The notes beneath the pieces are model-generated. The model did not search any database and was not told the DNA's origin. It saw only the letters and a program-made list of their open reading frames with translations. Of a DNA stretch of 7,520 nucleotides, positions 1,686-7,520 are shown piece after piece; within the stretch, counting starts at the first letter, position 1; every line of letters starts with the position of its first letter. The DNA is from a bacterium (GTDB taxonomy: Bacteria > SM23-31 > JAUVVT01): positions 1 through 7,520 of the forward strand of contig JAUWXV010000184.1 of NCBI GenBank assembly GCA_030616165.1, read 5' to 3'. Position numbers and translations under genes: made by a program.

Positions 1686-3233
1686 ATGAAAAGGTCATTT
1701 TTTATAAAATTTATTATCTTCAGTTTCATTTTACAAACGTTAATCTGTAACCCAATCTGGGGACAGCAGGTAAGAGTTTTAACTTATGATGAAGCTATTA
1801 ATATTGCATTAAAAGAAAGTTATACGGTAAAATCATTTCAGGAAAAAAAGATGGCGATGCAGCAATTTTTTAATTACTATAAGGCAATGTTTAAACCAAG
1901 ACTCGATTTCAGCATTTTTTCGCCGTCGTGGAATGAAAATGTCATCGATATACAGAGGGCAGATGATTTACCAGTTTACAATTCATTCGGGACAATGAGA
2001 TTTGGCGGAAATTTCCAATTTACATATATCATACCAACAGGTGGAAATATTGCTCTATCTTCCAGAATGTATCGTGAGGATTTAAAGACAGTTCTGGCAC
2101 TGAAAAATTATGAACAATTGAGTAATAAACAGGCATACAGCAATCTTAGTTTAAGTTTTAACCAGCCGATATTTACAACTAATACACTCCGTGAAAATTT
2201 AGATGAGGCAAGATATTTATACGAACAATCTTCGAGTCAATTTACACGAGGGCAAATGGATATTATTTACAGTGTGACCGAAGGTTTCTACTCACTTTAT
2301 CGTGCGACAAGAGAGGTTGAAATTGCAATAGAAAAATTGAAGAATTCAGAAGAGGCGCTCCGAATAGCAAAATTAAAATCTGAAACAGGCCGTATCCCTG
2401 AAGGTGATGTTTTAATTGCTGAAATTTCAGCCGCACAAAACAGAGCCAATCTTTCTGAAAGTGATGGTAACTTAGAGCGTTCAAAAGATTCTTTTAAGCA
2501 GTTGATCGGACTGAGCCTGGATGAAGATATTCAGATAATAACAGATTTAAAATACGATACCCTTAAAATTGATTTAAATAAAGCAATTGAAGAAGCATTA
2601 AAAAACCGATTAGAAATCCACGAATCAGAAATTAATATTGAACTCCAGGATATAAAGGTTGACCGTGCGAAAAGAATACGGGAATTCAGCGGAAACATTT
2701 CTGCTTATTATGACCTGACAGGAGTCAGTACAATACAAGGAGGTTCCATAGGTTCACTATTTGAATCATCATTCGATAATTTTATTGAGCGTCCGCCAAA
2801 CAGAGGAATTACATTAACATTATCTTATCCTATTTTTGATTGGGGGCGAGGTTCAGCAAGAGTACAGCAAGAAGTGGCTAATCTGAAAGAATCGGAACTC
2901 AGTCTGGAAAACACGAAAATGACTATCACTCGCGAAGTGAGGGATATTGTACGGAGTGTTGAAGAAGCTAAAAATCGGTTAGAAATACATGAAAAAAATC
3001 AGCAGGTTGCTCAACGAAGTTATGAAATTAGTCGCCTGCGCTTCGAAAACGGCGATATTACCAATCAGGAATTAGGTATAGAACAGGAACGACTGGCTGA
3101 TACACAAATAGATTATCTCAATGCATTTATAACTTATCAATTGGCTGATGCAGATTTAAAAAGAAAAACGTTGTGGGATTTTAAAAATAACTGGAGTTAC
3201 TTGAAAACTGATTATCTTTTAGAAAATGAGTAA
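1686..3233 (+). CDS. TolC-family outer-membrane efflux protein
   Basis: A 515-residue outer-membrane channel subunit; TolC-family trimers form a beta-barrel in the outer membrane and a long alpha-helical tunnel through the periplasm. Residues 1-26 form a signal peptide (KRSFFIKF, hydrophobic core, likely cut near IWG/QQ). The mature part starts with the family motif LTYDEAINIALKES (32-45). Two outer-membrane-efflux repeats follow. Repeat 1 has the strand NLSLSFNQPIF (153-163) and a helical hairpin with LKSETGRIPEGDVLIAE (230-246). Repeat 2 starts at LNKAIEEALKNRLEI (297-311), with strand ITLTLSYPIFDWG (375-387) and hairpin RLRFENGDITNQELGIEQE (450-468). Length is slightly above the usual TolC size. 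The start is set by AAGGAGTG (1671-1678). Its position between a permease gene and the hairpin/NEW3 gene argues that it is the dedicated exit duct of this export locus. Oddly, KNRLEIHE occurs twice (306-313, 429-436). Confidence 0.95.
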   Translation: MKRSFFIKFIIFSFILQTLICNPIWGQQVRVLTYDEAINIALKESYTVKSFQEKKMAMQQFFNYYKAMFKPRLDFSIFSPSWNENVIDIQRADDLPVYNSFGTMRFGGNFQFTYIIPTGGNIALSSRMYREDLKTVLALKNYEQLSNKQAYSNLSLSFNQPIFTTNTLRENLDEARYLYEQSSSQFTRGQMDIIYSVTEGFYSLYRATREVEIAIEKLKNSEEALRIAKLKSETGRIPEGDVLIAEISAAQNRANLSESDGNLERSKDSFKQLIGLSLDEDIQIITDLKYDTLKIDLNKAIEEALKNRLEIHESEINIELQDIKVDRAKRIREFSGNISAYYDLTGVSTIQGGSIGSLFESSFDNFIERPPNRGITLTLSYPIFDWGRGSARVQQEVANLKESELSLENTKMTITREVRDIVRSVEEAKNRLEIHEKNQQVAQRSYEISRLRFENGDITNQELGIEQERLADTQIDYLNAFITYQLADADLKRKTLWDFKNNWSYLKTDYLLENE

Positions 3234-3378: not shown

Positions 3379-3391
3379 GGAGAAAATGATG
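3379..3391 (+). promoter_or_regulatory. Ribosome binding site and ambiguous double ATG start
   Basis: GGAG at 3379-3382 is followed by two adjacent in-frame ATG codons at 3386 and 3389. The first lies only 3 nt from GGAG, the second 6 nt. The second (protein starting MKNLSQ) therefore has the more usual spacing and may be the true start. The difference is one methionine and does not affect the signal peptide. Confidence 0.6.
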
Positions 3392-4879
3392 AAAAATTTA
3401 TCTCAAATTACGTTAATTTTTATAATCGTTAATCTGATATTTTTTCTACCAAATGAAGTAATTGCTCAGGAAGACCAGGCATCTTTGCTGTTAGATTTAA
3501 AAAAAGCCAGAGCATCTTATGAAATCGCTAAACAAAAAGTGGAAAATGATGAAAAACTTTTCGAGAACAAGGCTATTTCAGAGGACGAGTACAATAAATC
3601 GAAGAATGAATTTCTGAGCAAGGAGGTCGATTATCAGAAACTAATTCTCAAAGTGATGGCACAGCAGTCTTATATTATTGTAGAAAAAGCAATCAAGTAT
3701 CGAACCCAAACGGGAGAAAAGCGGGTAAAAGTAACTATTCGCAGTACTATGGAGGGTAACCAGGAGTATCTGAATCAATTCCAGGAACACTTCGATATTT
3801 TTACACCTGAGATGCGGTCGAGTAAAATTTATAACATATTTGTCTCATTAATTAATATAGAAAACAAAACCATTATAGGCACTCCTTACGAGATAAGAAT
3901 CCCTGTGCTTGAATTAGGGAAAACGGTGGACGCCGATTTTGGCTTGTTACGGGACGTCGAAAACTTGCAGGTCAGCTTGAATTACAGCGGGAAAAAAGAT
4001 GAAAAGAATATCTACCTGGAAAAGGATGCCAGTGCCAATATCGTGGATATTATTTCCTCCGAGTTCTCACAGGAGACTGACCTCGGTTCCCAGGCAACCT
4101 TCGACCTCACATTAGAACGATTTTCAGATACTGATGATGTATATAGACTGACAGTATTAAACTTACCAAGGCAAATCAGTTATGACTTCATCGATTCTGA
4201 AACCAATGCCCGTCTTTCCCAGATTAAGTTTATGCAGGGAATCAACATTAAAAAATTGGCTTTAAAAACCTATCTCCCAGACAGATATGATGAACAGATT
4301 GTTATCGACAAACCTCTTGTGTTTCATGCGCTTGTGTTAACAAGAGACCAATATGAACAGTTGGGAAATATCAGTGATAAATATTTTAATGAAAAAGAAA
4401 TGGATGCAATTCAGGGTGGGAAGGTAACATTAGAACTTATTCCAAGAGGTGTTGGACGGATTGAAGTTCGTGCACTGAGCCTCTATCACGAAATAACTGT
4501 TGGCGACAGTGTGAAAATGGATATCACCATCCGCAATGATGGTACACGTCGGCTGGACAATATTAAAATATCAACAGATAATCCACTCCGATGGCGCTCC
4601 TTTATCCAGCATGATTTGATTAGATCACTGGAACCGGAAAAGGAAGAAATTATACACCTAATTATTGTTCCGCCACCTGATGTCGGGGTGGGAGCTCAAG
4701 AGGTTAAAATTAAAACTGAAGCCCTGGCTGATAATCGTCTTGTAGAAACAGAAGACAAAACTGTTCGGATTCAGGTTAAGGCAAAGACGCAGATTTTGTG
4801 GACAGCAGTGTTAATATTACTCCTGATAGGGCTTGTGTTAGGTATTGTTATTTTCGGGATAAAGATAAGTAGAAGATAA
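3386..4879 (+). CDS. Membrane-anchored periplasmic protein with HlyD/AcrA-like alpha-hairpin and NEW3 domain; candidate exporter adaptor
   Basis: A 497-residue protein. A signal peptide covers about 1-27 (cut after VIA). Residues about 30-95 read as two charged helices joined by the turn NKAISEDEY (61-69), the pattern of the alpha-hairpin that membrane-fusion proteins use to touch TolC. In the RLS tip motif known from AcrA-type adaptors, L58 and S65 have the correct 7-residue spacing, but the arginine position is N54. I see no biotinyl-lipoyl half-motifs around the hairpin. Residues about 95-350 are beta-rich, and about 230-320 resembles a weak NEW3-like sandwich (inference). Residues about 358-466 fit the NEW3 fold (VGDSVKMDITIRNDGTRRLDN, then a VPPPDVGVGAQEVKI strand). 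One TM segment (about 471-492) ends with KISRR, placing the C-terminus in the cytoplasm. It sits directly after the TolC gene. NEW3 membrane proteins (COG1470 type) are, as I recall, often near ABC permeases. The adaptor role is inferred. Confidence 0.85.
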   Translation: MMKNLSQITLIFIIVNLIFFLPNEVIAQEDQASLLLDLKKARASYEIAKQKVENDEKLFENKAISEDEYNKSKNEFLSKEVDYQKLILKVMAQQSYIIVEKAIKYRTQTGEKRVKVTIRSTMEGNQEYLNQFQEHFDIFTPEMRSSKIYNIFVSLINIENKTIIGTPYEIRIPVLELGKTVDADFGLLRDVENLQVSLNYSGKKDEKNIYLEKDASANIVDIISSEFSQETDLGSQATFDLTLERFSDTDDVYRLTVLNLPRQISYDFIDSETNARLSQIKFMQGINIKKLALKTYLPDRYDEQIVIDKPLVFHALVLTRDQYEQLGNISDKYFNEKEMDAIQGGKVTLELIPRGVGRIEVRALSLYHEITVGDSVKMDITIRNDGTRRLDNIKISTDNPLRWRSFIQHDLIRSLEPEKEEIIHLIIVPPPDVGVGAQEVKIKTEALADNRLVETEDKTVRIQVKAKTQILWTAVLILLLIGLVLGIVIFGIKISRR

Positions 4880-5032: not shown

Positions 5033-5120
5033 AAAATAATAAGGGAGAAAAATGTTTAAAACATTAATCTTAAAAGAAATCCGGGAGACTTTCCATAATT
5101 TCCACTTTCTCATTGCAACG
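5028..5120 (+). repeat. Direct repeat, first copy: leader, RBS and first 23 codons of a permease gene
   Basis: Aligned at a constant offset of 1580 bases, 5028-5120 and 6608-6700 differ at 7 of 93 positions, with an unbroken identical run at 5043-5081. It includes the tail of the GCGGTAAAATAAT element, the GGAG site and the first 23 codons. Beyond 5120 the match falls to about half within the next 40 bases. The pattern points to a tandem duplication or a gene-conversion tract. Confidence 0.85.
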
Positions 5121-6518
5121 CTCCTCTGCCTCGTACTTATACCTCTGGGGATGTATGTGACATTAAAGGATTATGAACAGAGATTCTCCGATTATCAGGA
5201 CTCGGTGAGGCTCTACCAGGAACGCTCCGAGGGAAGGATCAACAGCAGTTTCAACGCTGAGGGGTATCGTCCACCATCTGCTATGAGCATTTTTTCTTTA
5301 GGTCTCGAATACTTCCTTCCCACAAAAGTCGTCACTTCCCCGGATGGTCAGTTCAAGATGTTAGATGAATCAGGAATTAATAATCCTCAGTCCCTTCTTT
5401 CCGGTAAAGTAGATTTTCTATTCATTGTGAGTTTTGTTCTGTCGATACTGGCACTGATTTTCACCTTCAGCAGTATATCCGGTGAGAAAGAAACAGGCAC
5501 CCTCAGTCTCATTATATCAAACTCGGTTCCGCGATGGAAAATTATCTTAGCAAAGGTTCTGGGAAACTACGCTGTCTTTTTAGCCCCATTTATCATTGCG
5601 CTCCTCATTGCGATTTTAATTGTCAACATCTCAGGTGTAGTTTCAGTTTTATCCGGAGAGATTTTTCCGTCTTTCCTCGTGATTCTTTTCGTTACTCTGC
5701 TCTTTATTTTCTCCATGTTCAACCTTGGGATGTTAGTTTCCACACTTACACACCGTTCAATAATTTCAATGATAACTCTACTTTTCGTTTGGGTTGTTCT
5801 TGTACTTGCGGTGCCTAAAATCTGTCCTATGGTAGCCGAAATTCTCTATCCGGTGAAGTCACAGCAGGTAGTAAACAACGAGAAACAAGCAATCAGAGCA
5901 AATCTTGAAAGTGAACTTGACCAAAAAAGGCGTGAATTGTTTGACAGGACTATGATTGATTACGGATTAGACCCCCGAAATATAGACAAATTGAGATTAG
6001 CCCCAGCATGGAACAAAGCATCCGCACAGTATAATGAAGACAAAATATCCCTTGAAGAGGATTACCAGGAGAGAATCGTTACTGCAACCGAGAGAATAGA
6101 ACAGGATTACTCCAACAGGCGAAACATTCAGGATGCAATTGCAAAGAATCTTTCAAGGATTTCCCCGGTGAGTTGTTATACGTACATTCTTTCCGAACTA
6201 TCGGGCTCCGGTGTTATGGAAATGAACAATTTTCTTGAACATGCACGAAGATTTCGAGACCAGGTAAAACAAGAAATTTATGATAATATCATCTTGACAG
6301 AATATGCAAATACATTCGGGCAGATATTGGTTGATGCGAGACTTGCCGATGGATTTAATCCCCGAAGCGTATCCGTTCCGCATATATCTGACTATCAGCA
6401 TACAAATCTCGACCAGGCATTAAAAGCCGAATGGATGGATATCGTGCTTCTGTCTCTATTCTCCATACTGTTCTTTGCAGCGAGTTTTGTGGGATTTTTG
6501 AGGTATGATGTAAGGTAA
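5052..6518 (+). CDS. ABC-2-type transporter permease, paralog of the first permease
   Basis: A 488-residue inner-membrane permease with the same design as the gene at 179. TM segments are at about 18-37, 121-140, 170-194, 205-229, 237-256 and 461-482. A first extracytoplasmic loop spans about 38-120 and a second about 257-458. The second loop is rich in charged residues and likely largely helical over about 270-360 (for example NLESELDQKRRELFDR, 284-299). The signature SSISGEKETGTLSLIISNS (140-158) lies in the cytoplasmic loop after TM2. LSRISP (367-372) and the C-terminal GFLRYDVR match the first permease. GGAG at 5044-5047 is only 4 nt from the ATG, a tight spacing shared with the third permease gene. 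It follows the NEW3 gene and is bracketed by inverted repeats (5001-5032, 6525-6556). It could pair with either neighbouring permease as a heterodimer; this is inference, as is the export direction. Confidence 0.9.
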   Translation: MFKTLILKEIRETFHNFHFLIATLLCLVLIPLGMYVTLKDYEQRFSDYQDSVRLYQERSEGRINSSFNAEGYRPPSAMSIFSLGLEYFLPTKVVTSPDGQFKMLDESGINNPQSLLSGKVDFLFIVSFVLSILALIFTFSSISGEKETGTLSLIISNSVPRWKIILAKVLGNYAVFLAPFIIALLIAILIVNISGVVSVLSGEIFPSFLVILFVTLLFIFSMFNLGMLVSTLTHRSIISMITLLFVWVVLVLAVPKICPMVAEILYPVKSQQVVNNEKQAIRANLESELDQKRRELFDRTMIDYGLDPRNIDKLRLAPAWNKASAQYNEDKISLEEDYQERIVTATERIEQDYSNRRNIQDAIAKNLSRISPVSCYTYILSELSGSGVMEMNNFLEHARRFRDQVKQEIYDNIILTEYANTFGQILVDARLADGFNPRSVSVPHISDYQHTNLDQALKAEWMDIVLLSLFSILFFAASFVGFLRYDVR

Positions 6519-6524
6519 AAGTAA

Positions 6525-6556
6525 ACCGCAGACCCAAAGGGCAAGGGCGCTGAGAA
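6525..6556 (+). repeat. Right copy of the 32-bp inverted repeat flanking the second permease gene
   Basis: This copy starts 6 bases after the permease stop codon and is in opposite orientation to 5001-5032 (30 of 32 bases match). The pair encloses the whole permease gene, but there are no visible target-site duplications and no transposase. The same block also serves as the left half of a local hairpin with 6588-6612. Confidence 0.85.
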
Positions 6557-6602
6557 GCAGAGATAAAATAATATAAGTTCTGAAATTCTCTGTCTCTCAG
6601 CA
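6549..6602. repeat. Imperfect 15-bp hairpin in the leader of the third permease gene
   Basis: GCTGAGAAGCAGAGA (6549-6563) pairs with TCTCTGTCTCTCAGC (6588-6602) at 13 of 15 positions, the two mismatches being central. The loop is 24 nt and AT-rich. An outer pair, ACCGC (6525-6529) with GCGGT (6608-6612), extends the structure. It ends about 20 bases before the GGAG of the downstream gene. No T-run follows, so it is more likely two facing copies of the repeat family than an intrinsic terminator, though it could affect expression of the downstream gene. Confidence 0.75.
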
Positions 6603-6607
6603 TCTCG

Positions 6608-6700
6608 GCGGTAAAATAATATGGGAGAAAAATGTTTAAAACATTAATCTTAAAAGAAATCAGGGAGACCTTGCATAATTTCCAGTTTCTCATTGCCACA
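6608..6700 (+). repeat. Direct repeat, second copy: leader, RBS and first 23 codons of the third permease gene
   Basis: Partner of 5028-5120, with 86 of 93 positions identical. It carries the same GGAG-to-ATG spacing of 4 nt and the same N-terminus MFKTLILKEIRET. After this point codon choice shifts sharply towards A and T at third positions. Confidence 0.85.
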
Positions 6701-7520
6701 CTATTGTGTATTTCACTTATTCCTTTGGGGATATATTTTTCTGTAAAGAATTATGAAAAGCAAGTTTATGAATATAATAAAAATATTGAAGATTATCAAA
6801 AGGAATCAGAAAAGAGAATTAATGCAACCTTTGTAGCAAAAGGATTTAGAAGACCATCTCCTTTAATTATTTTTTCAAATGGAATAAATGATATTATTCC
6901 TTCCCAAGTAAATGTATCAAGATATGGCATTACAACAGTAATTAAATCTTATAATAAAAATCCATTTTCTGCTTTATTTGGTAATATAGATTTCGAATTT
7001 ATAATGATTTATTTCATATCAATTTTTTCTATAATAATTTCTTATGACAGCATTTCTGGTGAAAAAGAAAAAAATACACTTGGATTATTTTTATCTTATT
7101 CAGTTCCAAGATGGGTGATAATAATAGCAAAATTATTTATTAATTTTATTATTCTTATAATTCCTACTATACTGGCTCTTTTAATATCTTTTATAATAAT
7201 AAATGAGAATTTTTTTACAATTTTATTTTCTAAAGATTTATTCATGAGGATTTTATTTATATTTATTATTTCATTAATTTTCATTTTTATAAATTTAAAT
7301 CTTGGAATGTTGATATCTTCAAGAACTTATATCCCAACGTCTTCAATAGTGATTCTTTTATTGTGTTGGTGTTTTTTTACTCTTTTTATTCCAAAAATAA
7401 GTCCAATGATAGCAAAAATTATTTATCCGATTAAATCTCAACAAATAATTGACATCGAAAAAAGTATGGTAAAACAAAATCTTAGAAAGGAATGCATAAA
7501 AGAAGAGAGTAAAATTCTTG
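6632..7520 (+). CDS. ABC-2-type transporter permease, third paralog (partial, runs off window end)
   Basis: Open from ATG at 6632 to the last base, giving 296 codons with no stop; the 3' part lies outside the window. Reading the codons directly gives a protein starting MFKTLILKEIRETLHNFQF. It aligns along its whole length with the permease at 5052: TM1 at about 18-37, the loop motif with RINATF and GFRRPSP (62-76), TM2 at about 121-138, SISGEKEKNTLGLFLSYSVPR (140-160), further TMs at about 166-190, 203-228 and 236-254, then KISPMIAKIIYPIKSQQ (255-271), which starts the second extracytoplasmic loop. By analogy about 190 more residues are expected, including the last TM. The body of the gene is far more AT-rich than its paralog: 10 of 60 bases are G or C at 7141-7200, against 25 of 60 at 5581-5640. 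The conserved signature suggests a working protein despite that shift. Confidence 0.9.
   Translation, partial: MFKTLILKEIRETLHNFQFLIATLLCISLIPLGIYFSVKNYEKQVYEYNKNIEDYQKESEKRINATFVAKGFRRPSPLIIFSNGINDIIPSQVNVSRYGITTVIKSYNKNPFSALFGNIDFEFIMIYFISIFSIIISYDSISGEKEKNTLGLFLSYSVPRWVIIIAKLFINFIILIIPTILALLISFIIINENFFTILFSKDLFMRILFIFIISLIFIFINLNLGMLISSRTYIPTSSIVILLLCWCFFTLFIPKISPMIAKIIYPIKSQQIIDIEKSMVKQNLRKECIKEESKIL

Follow-up and report, generated by a model that had tools for sequence, protein, structure and literature searches.

A NEW3-domain protein beside tolC with a hairpin of the membrane-fusion-protein type: a probable adaptor of an ABC-2 exporter

The 497-residue protein encoded by the open reading frame at 3386–4879 (+ strand) of a bacterial contig of 7520 bases, analysed in its entirety and called the window here, probably does the job of a membrane fusion protein (MFP). 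Judged from its sequence and its predicted structure, it would serve a TolC-dependent ABC-2 exporter as periplasmic adaptor, on a scaffold unlike that of HlyD, AcrA or MacA. The support consists of the MFP type of its hairpin, the conservation of the hairpin tip, the order of the surrounding genes, the absence of an MFP gene and the anatomy predicted by AF2. We also favour, a little more cautiously, the view that it represents a second class of TolC adaptor, in which a NEW3/Ig-type ABC-2 subunit has, at its free N-terminus, a docking hairpin of the MFP type.

AF2 was run twice, with 9 and with 34 homologues, and both models show the same anatomy of the adaptor candidate: a signal-peptide helix, a hairpin, three beta-rich domains and a C-terminal helix. 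The model based on 34 homologues has a mean pLDDT of 84.5, with values of about 88–90 in the helices. The signal peptide comprises approximately residues 1–27 (3386–3466); it is recognised in the sequence and modelled as a helix at 4–19 followed by a low-confidence stretch at 21–29. Directly behind it, where a first, sequence-only reading had placed a helix-turn-helix, AF2 predicts helix 1 (residues 30–60; 3473–3565), a turn (residues 61–65, NKAIS; 3566–3580) and helix 2 (residues 66–92; 3581–3661). The two helices would pack in an antiparallel fashion, to judge from the five-residue turn and the homology to MFPs. Two beta-rich Ig-like domains follow (residues 96–210, 3671–4015, and residues 219–319, 4040–4342), both defined by AF2 strands and by matches to tandem Ig-like chains. 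They are succeeded by a NEW3 Ig-like domain (residues 345–465; 4418–4780) and a C-terminal TM helix (residues 470–496; 4793–4873; AF2 and sequence) with the end KISRR, all on the + strand and all in the succession originally read. The NEW3 domain (NPCBM_assoc) is recognised by Pfam PF10633 at residues 371–443 with 29.8 bits, above the gathering cut-off of 24.4 (E 7e-7), and residues 357–465 superpose on the Ig-like domain of a Micromonospora sialidase with a VIA Z of 12.3 and an rmsd of 2.0 over 99 residues. Foldseek and VIA searches with the whole model return Ig-like chains only, the list being taken up by matches to the beta domains.

At E values up to 1, Pfam finds neither a lipoyl nor an HlyD domain in the adaptor candidate. 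In the AF2 model the signal peptide alone lies upstream of the hairpin, which is thus not inserted between two lipoyl halves, in agreement with what had been read from the sequence. The MFP beta-barrel has no Pfam match; the structural matches listed are to Ig-like domains, and others are possible. Neither an N-terminal TM segment nor a lipid anchor is found: the signal peptide has no lipobox cysteine, and the TM helix lies at residues 470–496 instead. The KISRR tail and the positive-inside rule suggest that the C-terminus is inside. The candidate would be MFP-like in function and lies outside the HlyD/AcrA fold family; it is not filed in that family because the hairpin-split lipoyl domain, a defining feature, is absent.

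By its sequence, the hairpin is of the MFP type. The NCBIfam model TIGR00999 (CzcB adaptors) matches the window protein on its own at residues 27–87 (E 2e-4) and 29 of the 34 family members (best 6e-7); RND_mfp, also from NCBIfam, matches 17. When a profile of 32 hairpins was run against 177,635 PDB sequences, the top nine were all periplasmic adaptors, and the matches include 4l8j (3e-5), AcrA 2k32 (6e-4) and MacA 4dk0 (1e-3). With hhalign, the hairpin aligns to MFPs at a probability of 97.6 and E 3e-12; the comparison with MFP profiles that the sequence-only reading had called for thus places it, together with TIGR00999, among the MFP hairpins. For bit scores, we built an HMM from 20 MFPs that were not selected for their hairpin. 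It gives the window hairpin 25.8 bits and the family hairpins 13.7–39.3 bits; the maximum for shuffled sequences is 12.5 bits, and 23.4 bits (mean 2.1) when the hydrophobic pattern is retained. The exact RLS/RLT motif occurs in 20 of 32 hairpins and in 5% of shuffles. Chance or composition bias as the source of the MFP match is ruled out by the shuffles.

Among 89 ORFs from MFP loci, which were again not selected for a hairpin, the top matches are all MFPs, with TolC-type proteins below them. Across 395 genomes of the Parabacteroides gordonii phylum, the family profile finds 25 relatives of full length and, behind them, many matches limited to the hairpin. All 24 hairpin-only matches inspected are MFP-like in sequence with a tip of the RLS type or near it, and the hairpin-only ORFs run against Pfam carry HlyD domains in six of six cases.

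RxxxLxxxxxxS has been defined as the adaptor motif that binds TolC (PMC3391258). The tip of the window protein reads N-L-S, with N54 and L58 in helix 1 and S65 as the last residue of the turn, so that leucine and serine are present and the arginine is absent. The family alignment thereby bears out the proposed positions of these residues and of the turn, including the L/S spacing of RLS and the asparagine in place of arginine. Within the family, the tip leucine is conserved in 30 of 33 members and the serine in 28 of 33, while adjacent exposed positions are variable. The arginine position holds R in 25 of the 26 relatives outside the tolC-linked clade, which have no adjacent tolC, and N in all seven readable members of the tolC-linked clade, to which the window belongs. 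In the same clade, the tips of the TolC proteins (that of the window is encoded at 1686–3233) read TGR/NGD, as against a VGL-like tip in other channels, and accompany the N-for-R exchange as one inherited event. When the lost arginine and the TolC tip were compared for co-variation, the signal was not clear enough to claim.

As first read, the gene stands beside tolC and among permeases. The TolC-family outer membrane channel, its proposed docking partner, is encoded at 1686–3233 (PF02321 E 2e-40; TIGR01844), and the pair is flanked on both sides by ABC-2 permeases at 179–1591 (PF12679 E 2e-33), 5052–6518 (PF12679 E 4e-31) and 6632–7519 (PF12679 E 7e-18), the last one cut by the contig end; all are on the + strand. 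The third permease coincides with a drop in G+C, down to 0.25 at 6501–7500 and 0.33–0.41 elsewhere. Leaving the ATPase aside, the cluster of permeases, adaptor candidate and tolC corresponds to the YbhGFSR-type feature set.

No ABC ATPase is encoded on the 7520-base window contig. In the same genome, contig C343 and contig C192 each carry an ATPase 75–76% identical to the Parabacteroides one. That on C343 (76% identical to the P. gordonii one) is the only ATPase amid about eight same-direction ABC-2 permease ORFs (L163, 302–12046), of which one has a broken reading frame near 9206–9263. It is likely to be the ATPase partner of the window system, and we infer that contigs C285, C321 (the window) and C343 of this genome (G000) form one locus. 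Two related loci (L007 and L167) have five permeases each as against the usual two. Contig C285 (L165, 137–2883) encodes a histidine kinase with a GAF domain and a sigma-54 regulator of the NtrC type, divergent from a permease. Regulators of these kinds also lie beside the operon of P. gordonii. The pair, divergent from the operon and present at L008 (2969–5709) too, is conserved between the window genome, Parabacteroides, Tannerella and others. Membership of a defence system was considered and rejected, the PADLOC matches being limited to the generic ATPase.

In related loci, the gene order varies. tolC adjoins the adaptor gene in the window and in seven other loci (L008, L009, L011, L012, L013, L167 and the very divergent L169); the TolC-family gene is directly upstream of the adaptor in the window, Parabacteroides, Tannerella, a dysgonomonad, a Prevotellaceae bin and genome G548. 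In G548, a single contig carries genes for TolC, adaptor, three permeases, ATPase and two further permeases. The majority of relatives, 28 loci, have no adjacent tolC and usually present the order PDZ-domain protein, adaptor, ABC ATPase and two ABC-2 permeases. In all 12 genomes with such a tolC-less operon that were checked, at least 12 TolC-family matches lie elsewhere. ATPase and permeases are within the operon in most relatives. The PDZ protein is secreted and occupies the same slot in most tolC-less operons; in L051 it is encoded at 5576–6292, directly upstream of the adaptor (PDZ_2 E 1e-19). The remote relative at L169 (4941–9653; 29% identity) has a TolC-family neighbour (PF02321 E 5e-23) and no ABC gene in the 18 kb viewed. 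It also adjoins a gene for a 413-residue protein that looks metallophosphoesterase-like by eye.

Searched with the MFP model, neither the window nor any of the 37 related loci contains a canonical MFP gene. In 36 of these 38 loci the model matches the adaptor's own hairpin, over the hairpin only; L007, which is truncated before the hairpin, and L169, which is too divergent, give no match. Elsewhere in the genome of the window there are about ten MFP loci.

NEW3-TM proteins also exist in a hairpin-less form. These proteins are mostly about 380–400 residues long and immediately precede an ATPase and one ABC-2 permease. Their hosts are Bacteroidota, Thermus-like genomes and a Dehalococcoidia bin, and their loci are free of TolC-type and MFP genes; a search for homologues that lack the hairpin and keep tolC gave none. 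The NEW3-TM/ATPase/permease trio itself (L071–L078, L107, L014, L174–L178) is widespread in diderms and is present in the Dehalococcoidia bin. In the ATPase tree, one branch (96/94) sets apart the sequences from hairpin operons, and another (95/85) those from hairpin-less ones. The tree is consistent with a single gain of the hairpin, with loss as the alternative since the root is not firm. The idea of a differently built adaptor is supported, with one refinement: rather than NEW3 domains having taken the place of lipoyl domains in an adaptor, a NEW3-TM subunit of the ABC-2 transporter, which also occurs in a hairpin-less form, appears to bear an MFP-type hairpin. Three points on which the sequence-only reading depended, namely a predicted hairpin, an operon free of a canonical MFP and a tolC neighbour confined to hairpin-bearing relatives, all turned out in its favour, and its interpretation is thus supported.

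The hairpin might instead be a coiled-coil for self-association or permease contact in a NEW3-TM accessory of an inner-membrane ABC-2 exporter, with TolC incidental. Such a role would suit two observations: NEW3-TM proteins without a hairpin are common next to an ATPase and a permease, and tolC is missing from most operons with a hairpin. However, the R, L and S positions of the tip are conserved far above the adjacent surface positions, known adaptors use this motif to bind TolC (PMC3391258), the hairpin match is specific to MFP profiles, and TolC-family neighbours occur only at hairpin-bearing members, the remote L169 included. We therefore regard this explanation as unlikely.

Still less probable is that another locus of the genome encodes the true adaptor, a canonical MFP, and that the NEW3 hairpin protein is a helper. 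The MFP loci of the genome could supply one, but the two inspected (C228 and C80) have an RND pump and TolC-type genes of their own alongside, and a canonical MFP is missing at all 38 related loci. Least probable is that the hairpin is a fragment of TolC type rather than MFP type, acting as a channel plug or regulator. Given the hairpins by themselves, Pfam OEP does match 14 of the 32 (best 9e-6), and the pattern is common to TolC tips; yet the same family hairpins that score 13.7–39.3 bits with the MFP profile reach only 0.9–12.6 bits with the TolC-family profile, and hhalign, at 3e-12 against MFPs, gives 1e-4 against the TolC family. A derivation of the hairpin from TolC is disfavoured by the same values.

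For the adaptor function that we prefer, the hairpin would dock on TolC. Several copies would be anchored in the inner membrane through the C-terminal TM helix, the NEW3/Ig part would contact the ABC-2 permeases, and the hairpin tips would reach the periplasmic TolC tip and open the channel, so that substrate could exit across both membranes, driven by ATP. Counting against this reading are the asparagine at the tip arginine position across the tolC-linked clade of the window, the 28 loci in which tolC is not adjacent, and the missing lipoyl ring. In known adaptors, this ring helps to seal and oligomerise.

The candidate shares with HlyD, AcrA, MacA and EmrA a hairpin with RLS spacing, TolC and inner-membrane transporter neighbours and an inner-membrane anchor. 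In contrast to them, its hairpin is N-terminal and has no lipoyl domain, Ig-like/NEW3 domains follow, the anchor is a C-terminal TM helix, and the tip arginine is N in the clade of the window. E. coli YbhGFSR-TolC is an ABC-2 exporter with YbhG, a predicted member of the MFP family (PMC7190983). Both systems combine two ABC-2 permeases, an adaptor or adaptor candidate and TolC; the ABC ATPase of YbhGFSR has a counterpart in the operons of most relatives, the window contig itself being without one. Here, in contrast, the adaptor candidate is of NEW3/Ig type and the cluster has no canonical MFP. The hairpin-less NEW3-TM set has the NEW3 domain, the C-terminal TM helix and the ABC-2 operon in common with the candidate, and differs in having neither hairpin nor TolC-type neighbour and a single permease. 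BesA of Borrelia (PMC3807786) is likewise an adaptor off the standard domain set: it has the MFP body but no hairpin, the reverse of the window protein.

In the passages available from two adaptor reviews (PMC4446572, PMC13328181), the hairpin-bearing lipoyl domain is part of the common architecture. Adaptors without a hairpin (BesA) or without the membrane-proximal domain (EmrA) are named in these passages, and none with a hairpin and without a lipoyl domain. We found no relevant paper on a NEW3 protein with TolC or ABC permeases in the open-access literature; an earlier description elsewhere is possible.

With its RLS-tipped hairpin on an unrelated scaffold, such a family would uncouple docking from the remaining adaptor parts. 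If our reading is true, the hairpin that docks on TolC is a module that can be moved to another scaffold and functions without a lipoyl ring or barrel, and the adaptor family would be a clean test case for tip-to-tip docking. The reading also proposes a role for a protein family that is widespread, though unnamed, in Bacteroidota and related bacteria.
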